Of a DNA stretch of 64,000 bases, positions 2,104 through 39,256 are shown piece by piece. How positions within the stretch are numbered: position 1 is the stretch's first letter; the number at the start of each line of letters is the position of its first letter. This DNA is from Jonquetella anthropi DSM 22815. Its GTDB lineage: Bacteria > Synergistota > Synergistia > Synergistales > Dethiosulfovibrionaceae. Position numbers and translations under genes: made by a program. Where the stretch lies: the NCBI RefSeq assembly GCF_000237805.1, contig NZ_CM001376.1:1292349-1356348 (forward strand), read 5' to 3'. The notes under the pieces were generated by a model. That model did no database searches and was not told the DNA's origin. It worked only from the letters and a program-made list of their open reading frames with translations.

Positions 2104-3348
2104 CTATTGTAACTCACTTTCTTCGCCTGCGCCAGAGACGGAGCCGCAGTCCGGACGGCGCTCCTTCAGACATGGGTGAGCCATCACGGCGGAAACGACA
2201 GCCAAACAGGCCGCCACAATCGCAACGGCTGTTCCCTCCATGCCGTGGGACTCCAAGCTGCCGCCTAAAATCGGGCCGGCCGTCATGCCGATGCCGAACG
2301 CAATGTTGTACGCGCCCATCGACACGCCGGAGCCGTAGATGTGGCTTCGCTGGCTCACAAATGCCAGCGTCGCGGGGATACCGATGGCGTTGGCGCCCCC
2401 GTACAAGACCGATACCAACATGAACCCGGCGAAGGTGCGGGGCAGAGGCAGAGCCAGTAGGACGGACCCGGTCAGGATACAGCTGACGACTGCCAGCCAT
2501 CGTTTAGAAATCCGATCCGCCAGCCAACCTGAGACCTGCTGGAGCAGTGCCGACGAGATGGACACGCCGGCGACCAGATAACCGATCTGGGAGACCGACA
2601 GGCCGTGCCGATTCGCCAGAATTGGGATCAGAAGCATCGTCATGCCGCGGCCAAAGGTGGTCATCAGCTGGTACAGCATGACCCGAAAGAGAACCGGGTC
2701 AGCCAGAATGCCGCCCATAGACCGCCACAGGGACTTCGTGTCGTGAGAGGAATCGCCGATTCCCTTGGGAACTTTTATCAGGCTCGCGACCACCGCCACA
2801 GAGCAGCTGACGAACATGACGAGAAACGGTGCTTTAACGCCCCAGTGCTCGTAGGTTACGCCGCTCAGCAGAGGCCCTAAGCCGACCCCCAAGTAGGTCG
2901 CCATCTGCATCGTGCCGAAGAAGCGTCCTTCCTTGCCGGGCGGCGCCACCTCGGCGCCGATAGCCATCGCCACGGGAATGACAAACGCGCTTCCGACCCC
3001 GTTCAGCAGGCGAACGGCCATCAGGTGCCACGCTTTCGACGCGAAGATGTACCCAACCGACGCGGCGGCGTAGAGGCTCAAACCGCCCAGCATGAGCGTC
3101 CGGCGGGGAAATCGGTCCGCCATCGGGCCGGAAAAGAACGTGGCTGTCATTCGGCTCAGCGAAAATGCGCCCATGACCGCTCCAAGGAAAGCCCCTCCAG
3201 CGCCCATGCGAACCGCGTATAATGGAAGCAATGGATTCACGATGCCGATTCCCAGCATGCAGATGCACAGGGACATGGACAGGACAAAGAGAAGTCCCCA
3301 TGGACTGTATTCCTTTTCCCCCCTCGGCTTTCCGCTATCCAATGCCAT
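2104..3348 (-). CDS. Major facilitator superfamily transporter
   Basis: About 414 residues with twelve predicted hydrophobic helices. The MFS loop 2-3 signature appears as GPMADRFPRR and its counterpart after helix 8 as GWLADRISKR. It acts at the inner membrane, probably as a proton-coupled drug or metabolite exporter of the 12-helix type. The substrate is not predictable. The ATG at 3348 is preferred over the GTG at 3354 because the GGGGGAG ribosome site leaves proper spacing only for the ATG. It is the first gene of a two-gene unit with the acidic protein downstream. Confidence 0.85.
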   Translation of the reverse strand: MALDSGKPRGEKEYSPWGLLFVLSMSLCICMLGIGIVNPLLPLYAVRMGAGGAFLGAVMGAFSLSRMTATFFSGPMADRFPRRTLMLGGLSLYAAASVGYIFASKAWHLMAVRLLNGVGSAFVIPVAMAIGAEVAPPGKEGRFFGTMQMATYLGVGLGPLLSGVTYEHWGVKAPFLVMFVSCSVAVVASLIKVPKGIGDSSHDTKSLWRSMGGILADPVLFRVMLYQLMTTFGRGMTMLLIPILANRHGLSVSQIGYLVAGVSISSALLQQVSGWLADRISKRWLAVVSCILTGSVLLALPLPRTFAGFMLVSVLYGGANAIGIPATLAFVSQRSHIYGSGVSMGAYNIAFGIGMTAGPILGGSLESHGMEGTAVAIVAACLAVVSAVMAHPCLKERRPDCGSVSGAGEESELQ

Positions 3349-3373
3349 CCGCACTCCCCCCGTTTCTGATCGT

Positions 3374-3382
3374 ATTATATCA
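3374..3382 (-). promoter_or_regulatory. Extended -10 promoter of the MFS gene
   Basis: Reverse strand reads TGATATAAT, a TGn extended -10 element with a perfect TATAAT. It lies 26 bp before the MFS start codon. No good -35 box is seen, which is usual for extended -10 promoters. Confidence 0.6.
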
Positions 3383-3537
3383 ACGGCCCTTCTCCAAAAA
3401 CGGGATAAAGGCGGCGCGCCACGGCAAGATGATTTGCAATTTACAATTTTTATTATTGCGTTCAGCTATTCGACTGCCCGAATTTCGCTTCGTCACGTCG
3501 GCTATTTGCCCTCAAAAAGCTCGAAGGAGGAACCTCC

Positions 3538-4938
3538 ATGACACCAGCTCTTTCCCCAACCATCTTCCGGGAATACGATATCCGCGGCATCGCGGATACT
3601 GACCTGTGCGACGCCAACGTCCTAGCCATCGCCAGGGCGTTCGGGACCTACCTGACCCGCAAGGGCGGCCGTCGGGTCACGGTCGCCGGCGACGTCCGGC
3701 TCTCGACCGAACGGATCCGCGCGAGCGTCATCGCCGGCCTGACCGACTGCGGGCTGGACGTGATCGACCTCGGCGTCACCACCACGCCGCTGCTCTATTG
3801 GAGCCTGTTCGAGCTCAAGCCCGACGGCGGCGTCATGATCACAGGCAGCCACAACCCGAAGGAGATGAACGGGCTCAAGCTGGCGCTCGGCAGGGCTACG
3901 CTGTATGGCGAGGAAATTCAAAAAGTCGGCCGTATGGCTTTGGAAGGTGACTTCGATTTGTCAGCGCGCAAGGGAGGGACGGAGAAGAAAGACCTCTGGC
4001 CCGACTACTTGGCCATGCTGAAAAGCAAAATCGTCCTCGACCGACCTCTGCACGTCGTGACGGACACGGCCAACGGGACGGCCGGGCTCGGGATCCGTCA
4101 GTTCCTCACGTCGTTAGGCTGCAAGGTCACGGCGCTTTACGAGACGCCGGATGGGACGTTCCCGAACCACCACCCGGACCCACAGAAGTCAGCCAACATG
4201 GCTGACTTGGCCAAGCTTGTGAGGGAAGTCCACGCCGACATCGGCTTCGGTTTTGACGGCGACGCGGACCGAATCGGCGTCGTTGACGAAAAAGGCGAGA
4301 TCATCTGGGGCGACGTGCTCATGGCACTCATCTGGCGCGAGCTTCTGCCCAAGCACCCAGGCGCGACCGCCATCATCGAGGTCAAGTGCTCTCAGGCGTT
4401 AGAGGACGAAGTGCGTCGCTTAGGCGGCGTCCCGTACTATTACAAGGCGGGACACTCGCTCGTTAAGGCCGAGATGCGGCGAATCGGCGCGCTCTTCTCC
4501 GGCGAGTACTCGGGACACATGTTCTTCGCCGACGAGTTCTACGGCTTCGACGACTCGTTCTACGCCGCCGGCCGGTTCCTCAGGCTCCTCTCCCGGACGA
4601 AGGGGCCGATGTCCGCGCTGGTCAGCGACATGCCGAAGTACATCGGCACCGAGGAAGTTCGTATCCCCTGCTCGGACAGCGAAAAATTCGAGAAGGTCAA
4701 GGAGATCACCGATCAGGCCGTCAAGGACCACGAGGCCGTGACGGTTGACGGCGTGCGAATCCTCTACGGTGACGGCTGGGGGCTGATTCGAGCGTCGAAC
4801 ACTCAGCCTGTGATCGCCCTCAGGTGTGAGGGCAAGGACAGCGCCGCGCTGGAGCGAATCAAGTTGGACCTCAGGCGCCGCGTCCAGGCCGTCGGGCTGG
4901 ACGACTTCAGCTGGACGCCCGAGCCGCCAAAAAAGTAA
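3538..4938 (+). CDS. manB: Phosphomannomutase/phosphoglucomutase
   Basis: A 466-residue alpha-D-phosphohexomutase. It has the active phosphoserine loop TGSHNP (Ser104), the magnesium loop DGDAD (240-244), the sugar-binding loop GEYSGH (about 322) and the C-terminal phosphate-binding RASNTQP (about 418). It interconverts hexose-1- and hexose-6-phosphates for exopolysaccharide and LPS precursor synthesis. Sequence alone does not separate mannose from glucose specificity, and AlgC-type enzymes do both. The start has a strong GAAGGAGG site. The gene stands alone with its own terminator. It is distinct from glmM at 59.6 kb, which belongs to a different subfamily (SASHNP). Confidence 0.9.
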   Translation: MTPALSPTIFREYDIRGIADTDLCDANVLAIARAFGTYLTRKGGRRVTVAGDVRLSTERIRASVIAGLTDCGLDVIDLGVTTTPLLYWSLFELKPDGGVMITGSHNPKEMNGLKLALGRATLYGEEIQKVGRMALEGDFDLSARKGGTEKKDLWPDYLAMLKSKIVLDRPLHVVTDTANGTAGLGIRQFLTSLGCKVTALYETPDGTFPNHHPDPQKSANMADLAKLVREVHADIGFGFDGDADRIGVVDEKGEIIWGDVLMALIWRELLPKHPGATAIIEVKCSQALEDEVRRLGGVPYYYKAGHSLVKAEMRRIGALFSGEYSGHMFFADEFYGFDDSFYAAGRFLRLLSRTKGPMSALVSDMPKYIGTEEVRIPCSDSEKFEKVKEITDQAVKDHEAVTVDGVRILYGDGWGLIRASNTQPVIALRCEGKDSAALERIKLDLRRRVQAVGLDDFSWTPEPPKK

Positions 4939-5012: not shown

Positions 5013-6374
5013 TTACATTCTTGAAGGGTCAAGCCGAGTGCTGGCGTCCTCGAAGCGAGTGAACTCCTTGATAAACACCAAGTTCGCCGTCCCTGTCGGG
5101 CCGTTGCGGTGCTTGGCGATATCGACAAATGAGACGCTGCTCGTCTCTTCGGGGTCCTTGTCCTTATCGTAGTACTCCGGTCGGAAGAGGAACGCCACCA
5201 AGTCGGCGTCCTGCTCGATAGCGCCGCTGTCGCGCAGGTCGGACAGCTGAGGCCGCTTGTCGTTTCTGCTTTCGACGGCCCGTGAAAGCTGGGAGAGCGC
5301 CAACACCGGCACGTCCAGCTCCCGAGCCACGGCCTTCAGGCCACGCGATATCTCGGCCACTTCCTGCTGTTTGCTCTCCGCCTGGCGAGCCGAGTTCATC
5401 AGCTGAAGGTAGTCGACCACGATCAGCCCCAAGTCCTCGTGCTGAGCCTTAAACCTTCGGCACTGGGCCTTGAGCTCCATGGTGGACATCAGGGACCGGT
5501 CGTCGATGTAAAGAGGCACCTTGTCCAAGACGCTGGCCGCCTCGGTCAGATGAACCCAATCGCCGCCCTGCATCAGGCCGCTGAACATGTCGTGGATATT
5601 AATCCGAGACTCGGCGCCGAGCAGACGCTGAGCCAGCTGGAGCGCCCCCATCTCGAGGCTGAAGACCAAAACCGGCTTGCCCTGCTTGACCGCCACGTTC
5701 CGGGCCACGTTCAAAGCGAGCGCCGTTTTCCCCATCGAAGGACGGGCGGCCAAAATGTTCAGCGCGCCGCGCTGCAGGCCGCCGGTCAGCCGGTCAAGCT
5801 CGCTGAACCCGGTGGGAACGCCGGTGGTCAGATCGCCGTCCCGAGCGCAGGCCGCCTGAATCTGTTCAATTGCCTCAGACAGCAGGTCGCCGACCCGCTG
5901 GAAGTTGGACGAGTTGCGCCGGCGGGAGATCTCAAAAATCATCCGCTCGGCCTCTTCCAACAGCTCCTCGGTCTCGCACTGCCCCTCGTACCCTAACTGG
6001 GCGATTTTCTGCCCCGCCTGAATCACGCGTCGTCTCAGCGCCCGCTCTTGAACGATGCGGGCGTAGTACGCCGCGTTCGCCGCCGTGGGCAGCATGTCCG
6101 CGCACTCGACCAAAAAGTTTTGGTCCGACGCCGGATCCCCGTCACCCCGCCGGTTCAGCTCATCTTTCGTCGTCAGGACGTCGACCGGCCGTTCCCTCCG
6201 GGTCATGTCGCACATGACCTCGAACACCCTTCTGGGCTGGGCGTCGAAGAAGTCATCCGGGGACAGAATGTCCTGAACCTCAATGAGGGCGTTTCGATCC
6301 AGCAGGCAGCCGCCGATCACCGCACGTTCAGCCTCTGGGCTCGACGGGAGGGATCTGACCTGCGGGACGGGCAT
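5013..6374 (-). CDS. dnaB: Replicative DNA helicase DnaB
   Basis: A 453-residue hexameric helicase that unwinds DNA at the replication fork. The N-terminal DnaB domain covers about residues 8-110. The RecA-like domain has Walker A ARPSMGKT (210-218), a Walker B in LIVVDYLQL (about 315) and the downstream LSQLSR segment. The start codon overlaps the rplI stop as TAATG, indicating translational coupling. It is the last gene of the rpsF-ssb-rpsR-DUF2232-rplI-dnaB operon, an arrangement known from many bacteria. Confidence 0.97.
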   Translation of the reverse strand: MPVPQVRSLPSSPEAERAVIGGCLLDRNALIEVQDILSPDDFFDAQPRRVFEVMCDMTRRERPVDVLTTKDELNRRGDGDPASDQNFLVECADMLPTAANAAYYARIVQERALRRRVIQAGQKIAQLGYEGQCETEELLEEAERMIFEISRRRNSSNFQRVGDLLSEAIEQIQAACARDGDLTTGVPTGFSELDRLTGGLQRGALNILAARPSMGKTALALNVARNVAVKQGKPVLVFSLEMGALQLAQRLLGAESRINIHDMFSGLMQGGDWVHLTEAASVLDKVPLYIDDRSLMSTMELKAQCRRFKAQHEDLGLIVVDYLQLMNSARQAESKQQEVAEISRGLKAVARELDVPVLALSQLSRAVESRNDKRPQLSDLRDSGAIEQDADLVAFLFRPEYYDKDKDPEETSSVSFVDIAKHRNGPTGTANLVFIKEFTRFEDASTRLDPSRM

Positions 6375-16473: not shown

Positions 16474-16956
16474 TCAGTTCTCGCTGCTATCCTCCCGGGC
16501 CACGTCCTCGCGAATGAGCCGGCGTATTTCCTCTTGGAAGGTGTTCAAATCGGTGAACTCCCGATAGACTGCGGCAAATCTCACGTACGCCACCTTGTCG
16601 AGCTGCCGCAGCTCTTCCATCACCAAGTCGCCGATCCTGCTGCTGGGAATTTCGCCGCCTTCGCCACGCAGCTTCTTTTCGACCGACGCCGCGGCTTCCT
16701 CAATCGCCTCCAGAGAAACGGGGAGTTTTTCACAGGCGCGGCTCATCCCCCGGACGATCTTTTCCCGGTCGAACGCCTCGCGGCGCCCGTCCTTCTTGCG
16801 TATCCAGAGGACTTGGCCGCCCTCGGCCCGTTCGTATGTGGTAAACCGATAGCTGCACAGCGGACACTCGCGCCGGCGGCGAATCGCTTCCCCGCCTTCG
16901 ACTGGTCGGGTCTCAATTACCCGAGTGTCGGAAAAATCGCACCGAGGACACTTCAC
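16474..16956 (-). CDS. nrdR: Transcriptional repressor NrdR
   Basis: A 160-residue zinc-ribbon plus ATP-cone repressor of ribonucleotide reductase genes. The zinc ligands are C3/C6 and C31/C34 (KCPRC, ECPLC). The ATP-cone follows (IRKKDGRREAFDREKIVRG onward) and senses dATP/ATP. The GTG at 16956 is preferred: GGAGGTG lies 7 bp upstream and the protein then starts at the usual MKCP, whereas the ATG at 16971 overlaps the ribosome site. A likely target operator is present in this window at the nrdD promoter (36195-36221). Confidence 0.95.
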   Translation of the reverse strand: MKCPRCDFSDTRVIETRPVEGGEAIRRRRECPLCSYRFTTYERAEGGQVLWIRKKDGRREAFDREKIVRGMSRACEKLPVSLEAIEEAAASVEKKLRGEGGEIPSSRIGDLVMEELRQLDKVAYVRFAAVYREFTDLNTFQEEIRRLIREDVAREDSSEN

Positions 16957-36189: not shown

Positions 36190-36246
36190 TTGCGAAACAC
36201 TATATATATGGTATAGTGTTTCTGCAATCGCCACATATATGGAGAC
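36190..36246 (+). promoter_or_regulatory. nrdD promoter with NrdR-like operator
   Basis: TTGCGA (36190-36195), a 16-bp spacer and TATAGT (36212-36217) form the promoter. It is overlaid by the inverted repeat AAACACTATA (36195-36204) and TATAGTGTTT (36212-36221). The sequence ACACTATATATATGGT (36197-36212) resembles the 16-bp NrdR box ACACTATATATAGTGT. A weaker second copy, CCACATATATGGAGAC, is at 36231-36246. NrdR boxes usually occur in pairs, and nrdR itself is at 16.5 kb. Confidence 0.7.
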
Positions 36247-36268: not shown

Positions 36269-38320
36269 ATGCTCATTCGTTACATTTTCAAGCGCGACGG
36301 AAGTCAGGTCCTGTTTGATCGGGAAAAGATCCGCGTGGCCGTGATGAAGGCCGCGGCGGCGGTCGGATCGTCGGATCCGTCGATCGGAGAGAACGTCACC
36401 CGTCAGGTGGAGTCCTATCTGGCCATATTTTACGACCACGACTCTATCCCGTCGGTCGAACAGATTCAAGATCTGGTCGAGCGGATTCTCATCGAAAACG
36501 ACTACGCCGAGGTCGCTAAAGCCTATATCCTGTACCGCCGTCAGAGAGCCCGGATCCGGGACACCAAAGAGCTTTTGGGCGGCGCGGCCGACCTAGTGAA
36601 CCGTTATCTGGACAACATCGACTGGAAAGTCAACGAGAACAGCAACATGAGCTACTCGCTCCAGGGGCTGAACAATTACATCGCCTCGGAGATCACCGCC
36701 CAGTACTGGCTGAACGAGATCTACACGCCCAAGATACGGGACCTTCACACCTCAGGCTCGCTTCATATTCACGACCTGAGCAACCTGTCGGTGTACTGCT
36801 GCGGCTGGGACCTGATGGACCTTCTCACGGTCGGATTCGGCGGCGTCACCACAAAGGTCGGCTCCAAGCCGGCGCGGCACCTGCGCTCACTTTTGGGGCA
36901 GATCGTCAACTTCTTCTACACGCTCCAAGGCGAAGCGGCCGGCGCTCAGGCGTTTGCCAACTTCGACACCTATCTGGCGCCGTTTGTCGCCGCGGACAAG
37001 CTCCCCTATGAGAGCGTCGTCCAGTGCATTCAGGAGTTCGTCTTCAACCTGAACGTCCCGACCCGCGTCGGCTTCCAGACGCCGTTCACCAACATCACCA
37101 TGGACCTAACCGCGCCCAAGGCGCTGGCTAAACTGCCGGCCATCATCGGCGGCGAGCCCATCGACGCCACGTACGGCGACTTCCAGCGGGAAATGGACAT
37201 GATCAACCGGGCGTTTGCCGAAGTCATGCTGGGCGGCGACGCCTCCGGAAAGGTGTTCCCCTTCCCCATCCCCACCTACAACCTGACCAGCGACTTCAAC
37301 TGGGACAACCCGGTCCTTGACCCGGTATGGGAGATGACCGCCAAATACGGCATCCCGTACTTCTCCAACTTCATCAACTCGGACATGAACCCCGACGACG
37401 CCCGATCCATGTGCTGCCGGCTCCGGCTGGACAACCGGGAACTGCGCAAGCGCGGCGGCGGGCTCTTCGGCTCCAACCCCATGACCGGATCCATCGGCGT
37501 TGTGACCATCAACATGCCCCGGCTGGGATTCCTCTCCAAGGGAACCGACGACCTGCTCGCCCGGCTGGACGACCTGATGGACACGGCCCGCGACAGCCTC
37601 GAGATCAAGCGGAAAGTCTTGGAGCGCCTTACCGACGCCAACCTGTACCCCTACTCCAAGCACTACCTGCGGAGCGTCAAAAAGGCGTCGGGCCACTACT
37701 GGAACAACCACTTCAACACCATCGGCATCAACGGCATGAACGAGTGCCTGCTCAACCTGTGCGGCAAAGACCTGACGAGCCGCGAGGGAATCAAACTGGC
37801 CGCTTCGATCATGAACCACATGAAGGAACGGATGAGAACCTACCAGCTGGAGACCGGCAACCTGTACAACTTGGAAGCCACGCCGGCCGAGGGCGTCACC
37901 TACCGGTTCGCCAAGGCCGACCGGGATCAATTCGGCGGACAGGTCATCTGCGCCAATCACCGCCACATGCTGGAAGACGGCGCCGAGCCGTACTACACCA
38001 ACTCGTCCCAGCTTCCCGTCGGCTCAACCGACGACATCTTTGAAGCCCTTGAGATGCAGGACGAACTCCAGACCATCTACACCGGCGGCACGGTCCTCCA
38101 CGGCTTTCTGGGCGAGCGGGTCACCGACGGGGCGACCGTCCGACGGCTCGTTCGGAAAATCGCCGAAAACTATCGGCTGCCGTACTTCACCATCACGCCC
38201 ACGTTCTCTATCTGTCCGATTCACGGCTACATTCCGGGCGAACACGAATACTGCCCCATCTGCGACGCCGAGCTTGCCGCACAGGAGGCAGCCTGCTGCT
38301 CCTGCAGCGCCGGCGACTAA
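36269..38320 (+). CDS. nrdD: Anaerobic (class III) ribonucleoside-triphosphate reductase, catalytic part without the glycyl-radical segment
   Basis: 683 residues from the ATG at 36269 (GGGAGG upstream). The N-terminal ATP-cone (LIRYIFKRDGSQVLFDREKIR, residues 1-95) senses ATP/dATP. The ten-stranded barrel has the finger-loop region SMCCRL (C382/C383) and GSIGVVTINMPR. The C-terminal zinc motif is CPIHGY...CPIC (C649, H652, C662, C665). The chain then ends in a short Cys-rich tail, AACCSCSAGD. The RV.GY.RPV..WN.GK segment that carries the essential glycyl radical in this family is missing here and is found in the separate 47-residue protein at 39065-39208. Stop and nrdG start are adjacent (TAAATG). 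Confidence 0.93.
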   Translation: MLIRYIFKRDGSQVLFDREKIRVAVMKAAAAVGSSDPSIGENVTRQVESYLAIFYDHDSIPSVEQIQDLVERILIENDYAEVAKAYILYRRQRARIRDTKELLGGAADLVNRYLDNIDWKVNENSNMSYSLQGLNNYIASEITAQYWLNEIYTPKIRDLHTSGSLHIHDLSNLSVYCCGWDLMDLLTVGFGGVTTKVGSKPARHLRSLLGQIVNFFYTLQGEAAGAQAFANFDTYLAPFVAADKLPYESVVQCIQEFVFNLNVPTRVGFQTPFTNITMDLTAPKALAKLPAIIGGEPIDATYGDFQREMDMINRAFAEVMLGGDASGKVFPFPIPTYNLTSDFNWDNPVLDPVWEMTAKYGIPYFSNFINSDMNPDDARSMCCRLRLDNRELRKRGGGLFGSNPMTGSIGVVTINMPRLGFLSKGTDDLLARLDDLMDTARDSLEIKRKVLERLTDANLYPYSKHYLRSVKKASGHYWNNHFNTIGINGMNECLLNLCGKDLTSREGIKLAASIMNHMKERMRTYQLETGNLYNLEATPAEGVTYRFAKADRDQFGGQVICANHRHMLEDGAEPYYTNSSQLPVGSTDDIFEALEMQDELQTIYTGGTVLHGFLGERVTDGATVRRLVRKIAENYRLPYFTITPTFSICPIHGYIPGEHEYCPICDAELAAQEAACCSCSAGD

Positions 38321-39010
38321 ATGCTCATCGGAGGACTGCAGAGGACCTCTCTCATCGACTACCCCGGACTCGTCGCTGCGACGGTTTTCACCCTCGGTTG
38401 CAACTTCCGCTGCCCATGGTGTCATAACGGCCCGTTGGTCGACCAGTCGTCGGACCTGCTGGACGAAGAGGACTTCTTCTCGTTCCTCGCCAGTCGAAAA
38501 CGCCTGCTGGACGGCGTCGTGGTCACCGGCGGCGAGCCGACAATCCACCGCGACCTGCCGGAGTTCATCCTCCGAATCAAAGACATGGGGCTGAAAGTCA
38601 AACTTGACACCAACGGAAGCCACCCGGCAATGATGGCCGACCTGATCGACAAAAAACTCGTCGACTACATCGCCATGGACGTCAAAGCCGCGCCGTCGGC
38701 CTACCGACTCGCCGCCGGGACAACCGTCCAGCTGGAAACGCTCCGTCAGGCCATCGAGCAGACTCGGCGCCTTCCGCACGAGTTTCGGCTCACCCTCGTT
38801 CCGGGCATTCACACCGTCGACAGCATGGACGAATACGCCCAATTTTTGGTCCGCGGGCCGCTCTACCTTCAGGCGTTTCGGCCCGTCGAAACGGTACTGG
38901 CCGCCCCGTTCCGGGGCGCCCGCCCCTTTACCCCGAGCGAATTGGCCGCGTTTCGCGACCGATTAGCGTCGCTGATGGAAGGACCGGTCGTTCTTCGGTC
39001 TGCCATCTAG
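38321..39010 (+). CDS. nrdG: Anaerobic ribonucleotide reductase activating protein
   Basis: A 229-residue radical-SAM activase. The cluster motif is C27-NFR-C31-PW-C34, with GGEP at the second SAM-contact position. It uses SAM and a 4Fe-4S cluster to create the glycyl radical on NrdD, here presumably on the separate radical-domain protein. The start directly abuts the nrdD stop. A 54-bp gap with AAGGAGG leads to the radical-domain gene. Confidence 0.92.
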   Translation: MLIGGLQRTSLIDYPGLVAATVFTLGCNFRCPWCHNGPLVDQSSDLLDEEDFFSFLASRKRLLDGVVVTGGEPTIHRDLPEFILRIKDMGLKVKLDTNGSHPAMMADLIDKKLVDYIAMDVKAAPSAYRLAAGTTVQLETLRQAIEQTRRLPHEFRLTLVPGIHTVDSMDEYAQFLVRGPLYLQAFRPVETVLAAPFRGARPFTPSELAAFRDRLASLMEGPVVLRSAI

Positions 39011-39064
39011 CGAATACATCAATTTCGATCGATCATCAGATCGTCTATTGAAGGAGGACTTATC

Positions 39065-39208
39065 ATGGAAGAAAAGCGCACAAAGTGTGAAGTGTACTCT
39101 CGGGTCGTCGGTTTCCTTACTCCCGTTTCCCAGTGGAATAAAGGCAAGAAGGAAGAGTTCAAAGACCGCAAGACCTACGACGCCACGATGGCCCACCGTG
39201 ATTTTTAA
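39065..39208 (+). CDS. Stand-alone glycyl-radical domain of the class III ribonucleotide reductase
   Basis: 47 residues, with AAGGAGG seven bases before the ATG. After a short charged lead and Cys8 it reads EVYSRVVGFLTPVSQWNKG and then KKEEFKDRKTYD. This matches the C-terminal glycyl-radical segment that in other NrdD proteins follows the zinc motif directly. Gly16 in RVVGF is the expected radical site, with Phe where Tyr is common. It is the third gene of nrdD-nrdG-(this), before a strong terminator. It most likely docks on NrdD and is activated by NrdG, by analogy with the stand-alone glycyl-radical protein YfiD/GrcA that rescues pyruvate formate-lyase. Confidence 0.85.
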   Translation: MEEKRTKCEVYSRVVGFLTPVSQWNKGKKEEFKDRKTYDATMAHRDF

Positions 39209-39218
39209 GACACGGCAC

Positions 39219-39256
39219 AAACAGAGCGCCCCGCCTTCGGCGGGGCGCTCGCGTTT
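39219..39256 (+). terminator. Intrinsic terminator of the nrdDG operon
   Basis: GAGCGCCCCGCC pairs with GGCGGGGCGCTC across TTC, then GCGTTTT. From here to about 39440 I see no convincing gene. A 39-codon frame at 39314-39433 has no ribosome site. Confidence 0.85.

Follow-up and report, generated by a model that had tools for sequence, protein, structure and literature searches.

Ribonucleotide reductases (RNRs), which make the building blocks of DNA, are near-universal and heavily studied enzymes. In the oxygen-sensitive, anaerobic class III form, as represented by NrdD of T. maritima (4COI/4U3E) and P. copri (8P23), a catalytic body with a finger loop and a zinc ribbon is partnered by NrdG, and the radical loop forms part of the same chain. 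Here we describe a locus of Jonquetella anthropi DSM 22815, lying in a 64,000-nucleotide stretch (NZ_CM001376.1, positions 1,292,349 to 1,356,348; hereafter the window), in which nrdD encodes the same catalytic body, finger loop and zinc ribbon and is accompanied by an NrdG partner, whereas the radical loop is the product of a separate gene. This gene encodes a 47-residue protein, here called S, that is homologous to the last ~35 residues of class III NrdD. We consider it highly probable that the locus encodes a class III RNR with its glycyl-radical loop as a separate, obligate, NrdG-activated small subunit, which is also supplied by viruses.

Other described systems resemble this arrangement in single respects; the papers on them are cited here from excerpts. 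The split class II enzyme NrdJa-NrdJb of Pseudomonas aeruginosa is likewise an RNR in two chains, both of which are needed (PMC4520616), but it belongs to another class, and its small chain mediates disulphide exchange and, in the excerpted text, bears no radical (PMC4520616). NrdD and S of the window match class III models, and S has one cysteine, not a pair. GrcA/YfiD and the phage T4 protein Y06I are, like S, small stand-alone glycyl-radical proteins, activated by radical S-adenosylmethionine (SAM) enzymes and also phage-borne (PMC8683613); they repair a normally complete pyruvate formate-lyase (PMC8683613), whereas the NrdD of the window lacks a radical loop. The same paper mentions spare parts for further glycyl radical enzymes only as a possibility (PMC8683613). 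Phage nrdD genes also occur in pieces, broken by introns, inteins and homing endonucleases (PMC3653736), yet in the excerpted text these breaks are due to mobile elements or of undescribed cause, and no conserved cut freeing the radical loop is among them (PMC3653736). According to a 2015 paper, no split RNR other than NrdJ had been found in any non-viral organism (PMC4520616). An earlier, sequence-only reading of the locus had held a two-part NrdD to be apparently undescribed; in agreement with this, no description was found in excerpts of the open-licence full-text literature, and subscription papers may describe it. Public annotation already names at least one S protein after NrdD (that of ANMV-1, see below), and no remark on its meaning was found.

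The sequence-only reading had described an NrdD without a radical motif, nrdG immediately after it and a 47-residue gene encoding the missing segment. All three genes, nrdD, nrdG2 and S, were found at those coordinates (Table 1), with profile matches that agree. Directly observed coverage of the Pfam NRDD family by the two chains is complementary: NrdD (model positions 1–529) and S (530–562) together span the family with neither gap nor overlap, and a whole-genome profile scan likewise found these two pieces, without overlap, and no further one. The large chain is a catalytic NRDD homologue by a wide margin (598 bits against a cut-off of 26.2; NF006126, 1026 bits against 548), comprising an ATP-cone, a catalytic barrel, a zinc ribbon and a free C-terminal tail without a glycyl-radical loop. 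The finger-loop cysteine, the NxN flap and the zinc ribbon are all found in it, while the glycyl-radical motif is absent from the chain, which ends 18 residues past the last CPIC cysteine. Aligned with T. maritima NrdD (4coi), the large chain covers residues 105–609 and the S profile residues 612–647, with Gly16 of S on residue 621; the cut therefore lies immediately past the zinc ribbon, setting free the radical loop together with the tail. In T. maritima NrdD the glycyl radical is located on Gly621 (PMC4493059, excerpt). In the window and in 15 relatives the loop is thus carried not by the same chain but by a separate gene, and nrdG2, which begins directly past the nrdD stop, encodes an NrdG-type activase as found with class III RNRs. 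Only the two proteins together, and not the large chain by itself, resemble a class III RNR, and complementary coverage together with conservation supports the earlier proposal of a catalytic NrdD with a genetically separate radical part.

The genome of the window is a single contig of 1.68 Mb, 99.94% complete. A second full-length NrdD, which the sequence-only reading had named as an outcome that would speak against it, did not appear, as the whole-genome scan gave no other NRDD match; Gly_radical (PF01228) also has no match in this genome. These results bear on the alternative that S acts as no more than a spare or a means of repair of the GrcA/YfiD kind, not obligate, with the large NrdD working or being regulated without S or with another radical source. 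GrcA is a known precedent of a stand-alone glycyl-radical protein (PMC8683613, excerpt), and the viral S copies described below resemble spare parts. We nevertheless regard this alternative as improbable, since the split NrdD has no radical loop of its own and the genome contains neither an intact, loop-bearing NrdD to repair nor a PF01228 match, and since S matches NrdD models and, at E-values up to 1, neither PF01228 nor the GrcA model. Viral S could still act like GrcA/YfiD on hosts with a fused NrdD.

The arrangement is conserved. Among 149 sampled Synergistota genomes, 91 match NRDD and 16, including that of the window, have the split pair, always in the order nrdD-nrdG-S; the orthologues of the 15 relatives are thus split in the same way, with nrdG between the parts, whereas the sequence-only reading had named fused homologues in close relatives as an outcome that would speak against it. 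In 13 aligned S sequences (the window's, 11 from relatives and one prophage copy), 21 positions are invariant, the radical glycine among them. Over 28 core codons of S in 17 sequences, one of them a prophage copy, the pooled proportion of synonymous differences (pS) is 0.82 and that of nonsynonymous differences (pN) 0.077, with synonymous sites saturated in most listed pairs; among closer pairs, L034/L035, for example, shows six synonymous and no nonsynonymous differences. S is under purifying selection. Because 16 of the 91 NRDD-bearing genomes share the split and S is under such selection, assembly error or decay is unlikely. The fused NrdDs of the sister genus, considered as fused orthologues, were rejected, as they are of a different, distant NrdD type (RRITGYL motif).

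The same gene order speaks to whether the two parts end up in one chain, joined post-transcriptionally or post-translationally by frameshift, read-through, an intron or a split intein. Eight pairs of NrdD and S genes under archaeal record titles overlap by 7–11 bases in another frame, and four genomes of the Kuenenbacteria phylum as well as G238 match through in-frame stops, as joining would allow. In the window, however, nrdG lies between the parts, an order shared by 18 loci, and elsewhere the two genes are far apart or S comes first; the sequence-only reading was right that a simple frameshift is no explanation. In addition, NrdD has a normal stop, S has its own start and a ribosome-binding-site-like stretch, and neighbouring NrdD and S frames are spread over all three phases (13, 9, 21). 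No intein half was noticed by eye at either end, no dedicated intein search having been run. Joining of the pieces is, on this evidence, very improbable.

Two-part NrdDs also occur beyond this genome and its phylum. Genome contigs were scanned with an S alignment and the best 80 of 127 loci classified with our own hidden Markov models: S occupies a frame of its own in 65, with NrdD close by in 58 of them, and the remaining 15 are fused. By record title, the loci include Orenia metallireducens, Endomicrobium, Caldiserica/Cryosericum, Patescibacteria, Desulfurellales, Thermoplasmatota and DPANN archaea. An S query favours stand-alone, similar pieces, both here and in the IMG/VR scan below; because of this bias, three further groups were counted with the family model, their split classes being a reading of match tables. 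The class of Orenia, which we take to be Halanaerobiia, has 59 genomes, of which 51 match NRDD, 47 over the cut-off; 41 of the 47 have a separate small piece, and the other six comprise three fused throughout (G284–G286), G238 matching through in-frame stops and two partial catalytic matches. In the Cryosericum phylum (54 genomes, 39 matching), 30 have a separate piece, seven are fused and two are catalytic only. The Kuenenbacteria phylum gave 33 genomes over the cut-off among 116 sampled: 13 separate, 11 fused, four with in-frame stops between the parts, three in one frame with an insert, and two fused with a broken-up match. Many split NrdD frames (Orenia class, Cryosericum phylum, viral G149) are 860–1556 residues long and show gaps in the family match of the sort expected from inteins.

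Gene order also varies. Among 92 loci, nrdD-S-nrdG occurs 47 times and nrdD-nrdG-S 18 times (the 16 of the phylum sample, Orenia and one further Synergistales locus); 15 are fused, five have S alone, two S-nrdG and two nrdD-S with nrdG on the opposite strand, and three are single cases, one of them S-nrdG-nrdD. In a tree of 84 catalytic domains, built by a quick method (LG+G4) that gave a long-branch warning, the split or fused label needs at least six changes, and the window's group and Orenia form one supported clade of 18 split rows. A single clade of all split rows is rejected in a thinner set (p-AU 1.4e-11; 45 split of 65; seven changes needed), so splitting, fusion or both have been repeated, or genes have moved.

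An AlphaFold2 model of the large chain alone, from a 29-row alignment, reached a mean predicted local distance difference test (pLDDT) score of 80.4 and a predicted template modelling (pTM) score of 0.74. Class III RNR chains make up all of its 36 best Protein Data Bank (PDB) matches, with P. copri NrdD first (8p2c_A, E 3.4e-25, TM 0.63/0.66); in prediction, the large chain folds as an NrdD without S. In the same model the finger-loop region around MCCR (residues 361–403) is of low confidence without S, with block means of 43–59 for residues 361–400 and values below 50 for the segment 387–403. This would fit a loop that needs S for order, or may only reflect the thin alignment. Rows of the 29-row alignment were chosen by such motifs, so invariance there is partly built in (L080 and L105, both with MCCR, were left out); among 61 split NrdDs taken without a motif filter, MCCR is kept in 60, ENxN and YCxGW in all 61, and a zinc-ribbon-type C..C pattern in 59, one of the two misses, L097, having an NrdD match that stops early.

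Table 1 Features of the nrdD-nrdG2-S locus in window coordinates
Feature	Position	Strand	Evidence
nrdD catalytic subunit	36269..38320	+	683 aa; Pfam NRDD 1-529, E 2.5e-179; ATP-cone, E 3e-21
Finger-loop MCCR (M381 C382 C383 R384)	37409..37420	+	sequence; expected radical acceptor cysteine(s)
Zinc-ribbon motif CPIHGY...CPIC (C649 to C665)	38213..38263	+	sequence
nrdG2 activase, radical SAM	38321..39010	+	TIGR02495, 180.0 bits (cut-off 131); PF04055
Ribosome-binding-site-like AAGGAGG of S	39051..39057	+	sequence; 7 bases 5' of ATG
S, 47-aa stand-alone glycyl-radical protein	39065..39208	+	NRDD 530-562, E 1.7e-10; conserved in homologues
Gly16 codon of S, predicted radical site	39110..39112	+	aligns with residue 621 of 4coi
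Terminator-like hairpin ending the nrdD-nrdG-S unit	39224..39250	+	12 pairs, 11 G-C; consensus match only
Near-consensus NrdR-type box, imperfect palindrome 5' of nrdD	36197..36212	.	2 mismatches to ACACWATATWTWGTGT, which we take to be the NrdR box consensus

An alternative in-frame ATG at 36239 would extend NrdD to 693 residues. The tail of the window's NrdD (38284–38317) is cysteine-rich, ACCSCSAGD, and is perhaps redox-active; the tails of 15 relatives are not cysteine-rich. The NrdR-type box upstream of nrdD is suggestive only. In 14 relatives scanned such boxes are inconsistent, eight having no site at up to four mismatches and six having one or two at three to four. The window also contains a gene for the NrdR repressor (16516–16956, minus strand; TIGR00244, 186 bits).

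Stand-alone S genes are also observed directly in viruses. A scan of IMG/VR gave 64 viral loci, 58 with S in its own frame (one of them, L192, showing no start codon) and six fused, and 56 of the 58 have no NrdD in the surrounding DNA; some viral records look near-duplicate, and three contigs give two loci each. In 48 of 50 viral records scanned whole (49 from IMG/VR and ANMV-1), S occurs without a catalytic NrdD. The two exceptions are G149 (203 kb), with a full split set, and G192, with an NrdD end at the contig edge; the locus in G149 (L132, G149:C1:155209-159747) consists of a split NrdD with an insert in frame, NrdG and S. ANMV-1 is an archaeal virus whose genome is reported complete and bears an nrdD label in a figure (PMC4372165, excerpt); it encodes only a 144-residue NrdD-type protein, which ends in the radical loop. 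Terminases, replication proteins and anti-repressors are among the 71 proteins examined next to viral S at 12 loci. Among 50,697 phage records only the same two records matched S queries throughout, and MT835493.1, a candidate phage S, was rejected, as it is a full fused NrdD of 802 residues; 27 plasmid records matched an S query.

Further S copies lie in prophage or phage-like regions of three split-NrdD genomes: G033, where 22 proteins include terminase, head, tail and primase matches; G243, with a tail and baseplate module; and G262, with a single-stranded DNA-binding protein (SSB) and DnaB. A GFL[TS]P motif is common to six viral S proteins and the window's group and is found in none of the 22 fused loops shown (a 23rd fused row showed no loop), and an N-terminal extension is common to 15 viral loci and eight genome loci, the latter mostly from the Cryosericum phylum. 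These shared features make a descent from stand-alone host genes probable for at least some of the viral copies.

Several viral copies have unusual contexts. In L194 (4120–5040) and L195, S is broken just after the radical-glycine codon by ~800 bases; the L194 insert has a 242-residue open reading frame with a LAGLIDADG_3 match just over the cut-off, and Rfam gave no match in the insert of L194/L195. In the Elusimicrobiales contig L100 (near 3340–4114) the radical loop is the C-terminus of a 240-residue protein of a virion-structural family (phrog_6121, E 3.9e-16), and in the G262 phage-like region (L200, 3123–3641) it shares a chain with a SLOG-type domain (PF10686), and a thioredoxin gene lies ~2.2 kb downstream (5860–6159). 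Viral S in L051 (3680–4114) and L154 has its own CxxC pairs ahead of the loop, with NRDD matches from positions 519 and 510.

The viral S might be not a helper but a decoy or inhibitor occupying host NrdD, or a functionless passenger gene, as the rarity of a catalytic NrdD in the same records, the virion-structural-like and SLOG-type fusions and the two interrupted copies would allow. Most viral copies listed nevertheless keep the radical-loop core, viruses need deoxyribonucleoside triphosphates (dNTPs), and T4 Y06I is a known helper of such a kind (PMC8683613, excerpt). We think a decoy or passenger role unlikely, if less so than the other alternatives weighed here.

Besides the query bias noted above, several observations weigh against an obligate radical subunit supplied also by viruses. 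An intact class II NrdJ is present in the same genome (PF02867; TIGR02504, 491 bits, cut-off 400), and because of it the split enzyme is not the sole RNR of this organism and is not proven essential there; among the 15 best-quality split-bearing genomes, 14 have a class I/II RNR (PF02867). One split NrdD, L060, lacks MCCR, and G267, among the 41 Orenia-class genomes with a separate piece, and G298, among the 30 of the Cryosericum phylum, show the small piece only, with no catalytic match. On the viral side, L194 and L195 are interrupted, four of the 50 records match below the family cut-off, and the records may be fragments (none is listed as at least 90% complete), in which a distant catalytic gene could be missed, ANMV-1 excepted. 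The case as a whole draws on genes, sequence comparison and a structural model, and that model is of the large chain, not the complex.

The class II enzyme also raises the alternative that this is a decaying nrdD operon, both pieces being lost after class II RNR took over, for which the class I/II RNR in 31 of 49 split-bearing genomes would speak as well. Such decay is already contradicted and hardly tenable, as pN is far below pS in S, the same arrangement recurs in 16 genomes, active-site motifs are kept, and some split-bearing genomes have no other detected RNR. PF02867 is absent from 18 of the 49, and none of these 18 matches RTPR. One of them, G061, belongs to the family of the window's genome and is rated 100% complete; for the remaining 17, of which five belong to the Cryosericum phylum, completeness is not reported, which makes them weaker evidence of absence. 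If dNTPs are made de novo in organisms without another RNR, the split enzyme must work there.

Returning to the obligate small subunit, we propose that the large NrdD retains its ATP-cone, its zinc ribbon and its catalytic barrel, finger-loop cysteines included, and that S would provide the missing last segment, docking near the zinc ribbon in a putative complex. The RVVGF loop of S would thread into the barrel beside C382/C383, and NrdG2 would make the radical on Gly16. By analogy with YfiD (PMC8683613, excerpt), exchange of S after oxygen cleavage is plausible, and it gains in plausibility from the S genes that stand alone in viral contigs and in phage-like regions. Viruses of such hosts would bring S alone, most likely as a cheap means of maintaining the host's NrdD activity, or recovering it, during infection. 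We give an even chance to the fuller proposal that S is a freely exchangeable radical subunit, separated several times by anaerobes, swappable after oxygen cleavage, and encoded alone by bacterial and archaeal viruses, which with this gene of ~150 bases would take control of dNTP synthesis in the host or renew it. In that proposal some viral copies bring zinc-ribbon-like cysteines of their own, one brings a SLOG-type domain and one sits on a virion-like protein.

With a radical subunit of ~5 kDa, the glycyl radical could be introduced, labelled or exchanged separately from the catalytic body. Such a subunit is also relevant to whether glycyl-radical spare parts occur for enzymes other than pyruvate formate-lyase (PMC8683613, excerpt). 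For virology, the stand-alone copies point to a dNTP-metabolism gene of very small size that has been overlooked in the viruses of anaerobic bacteria and archaea.

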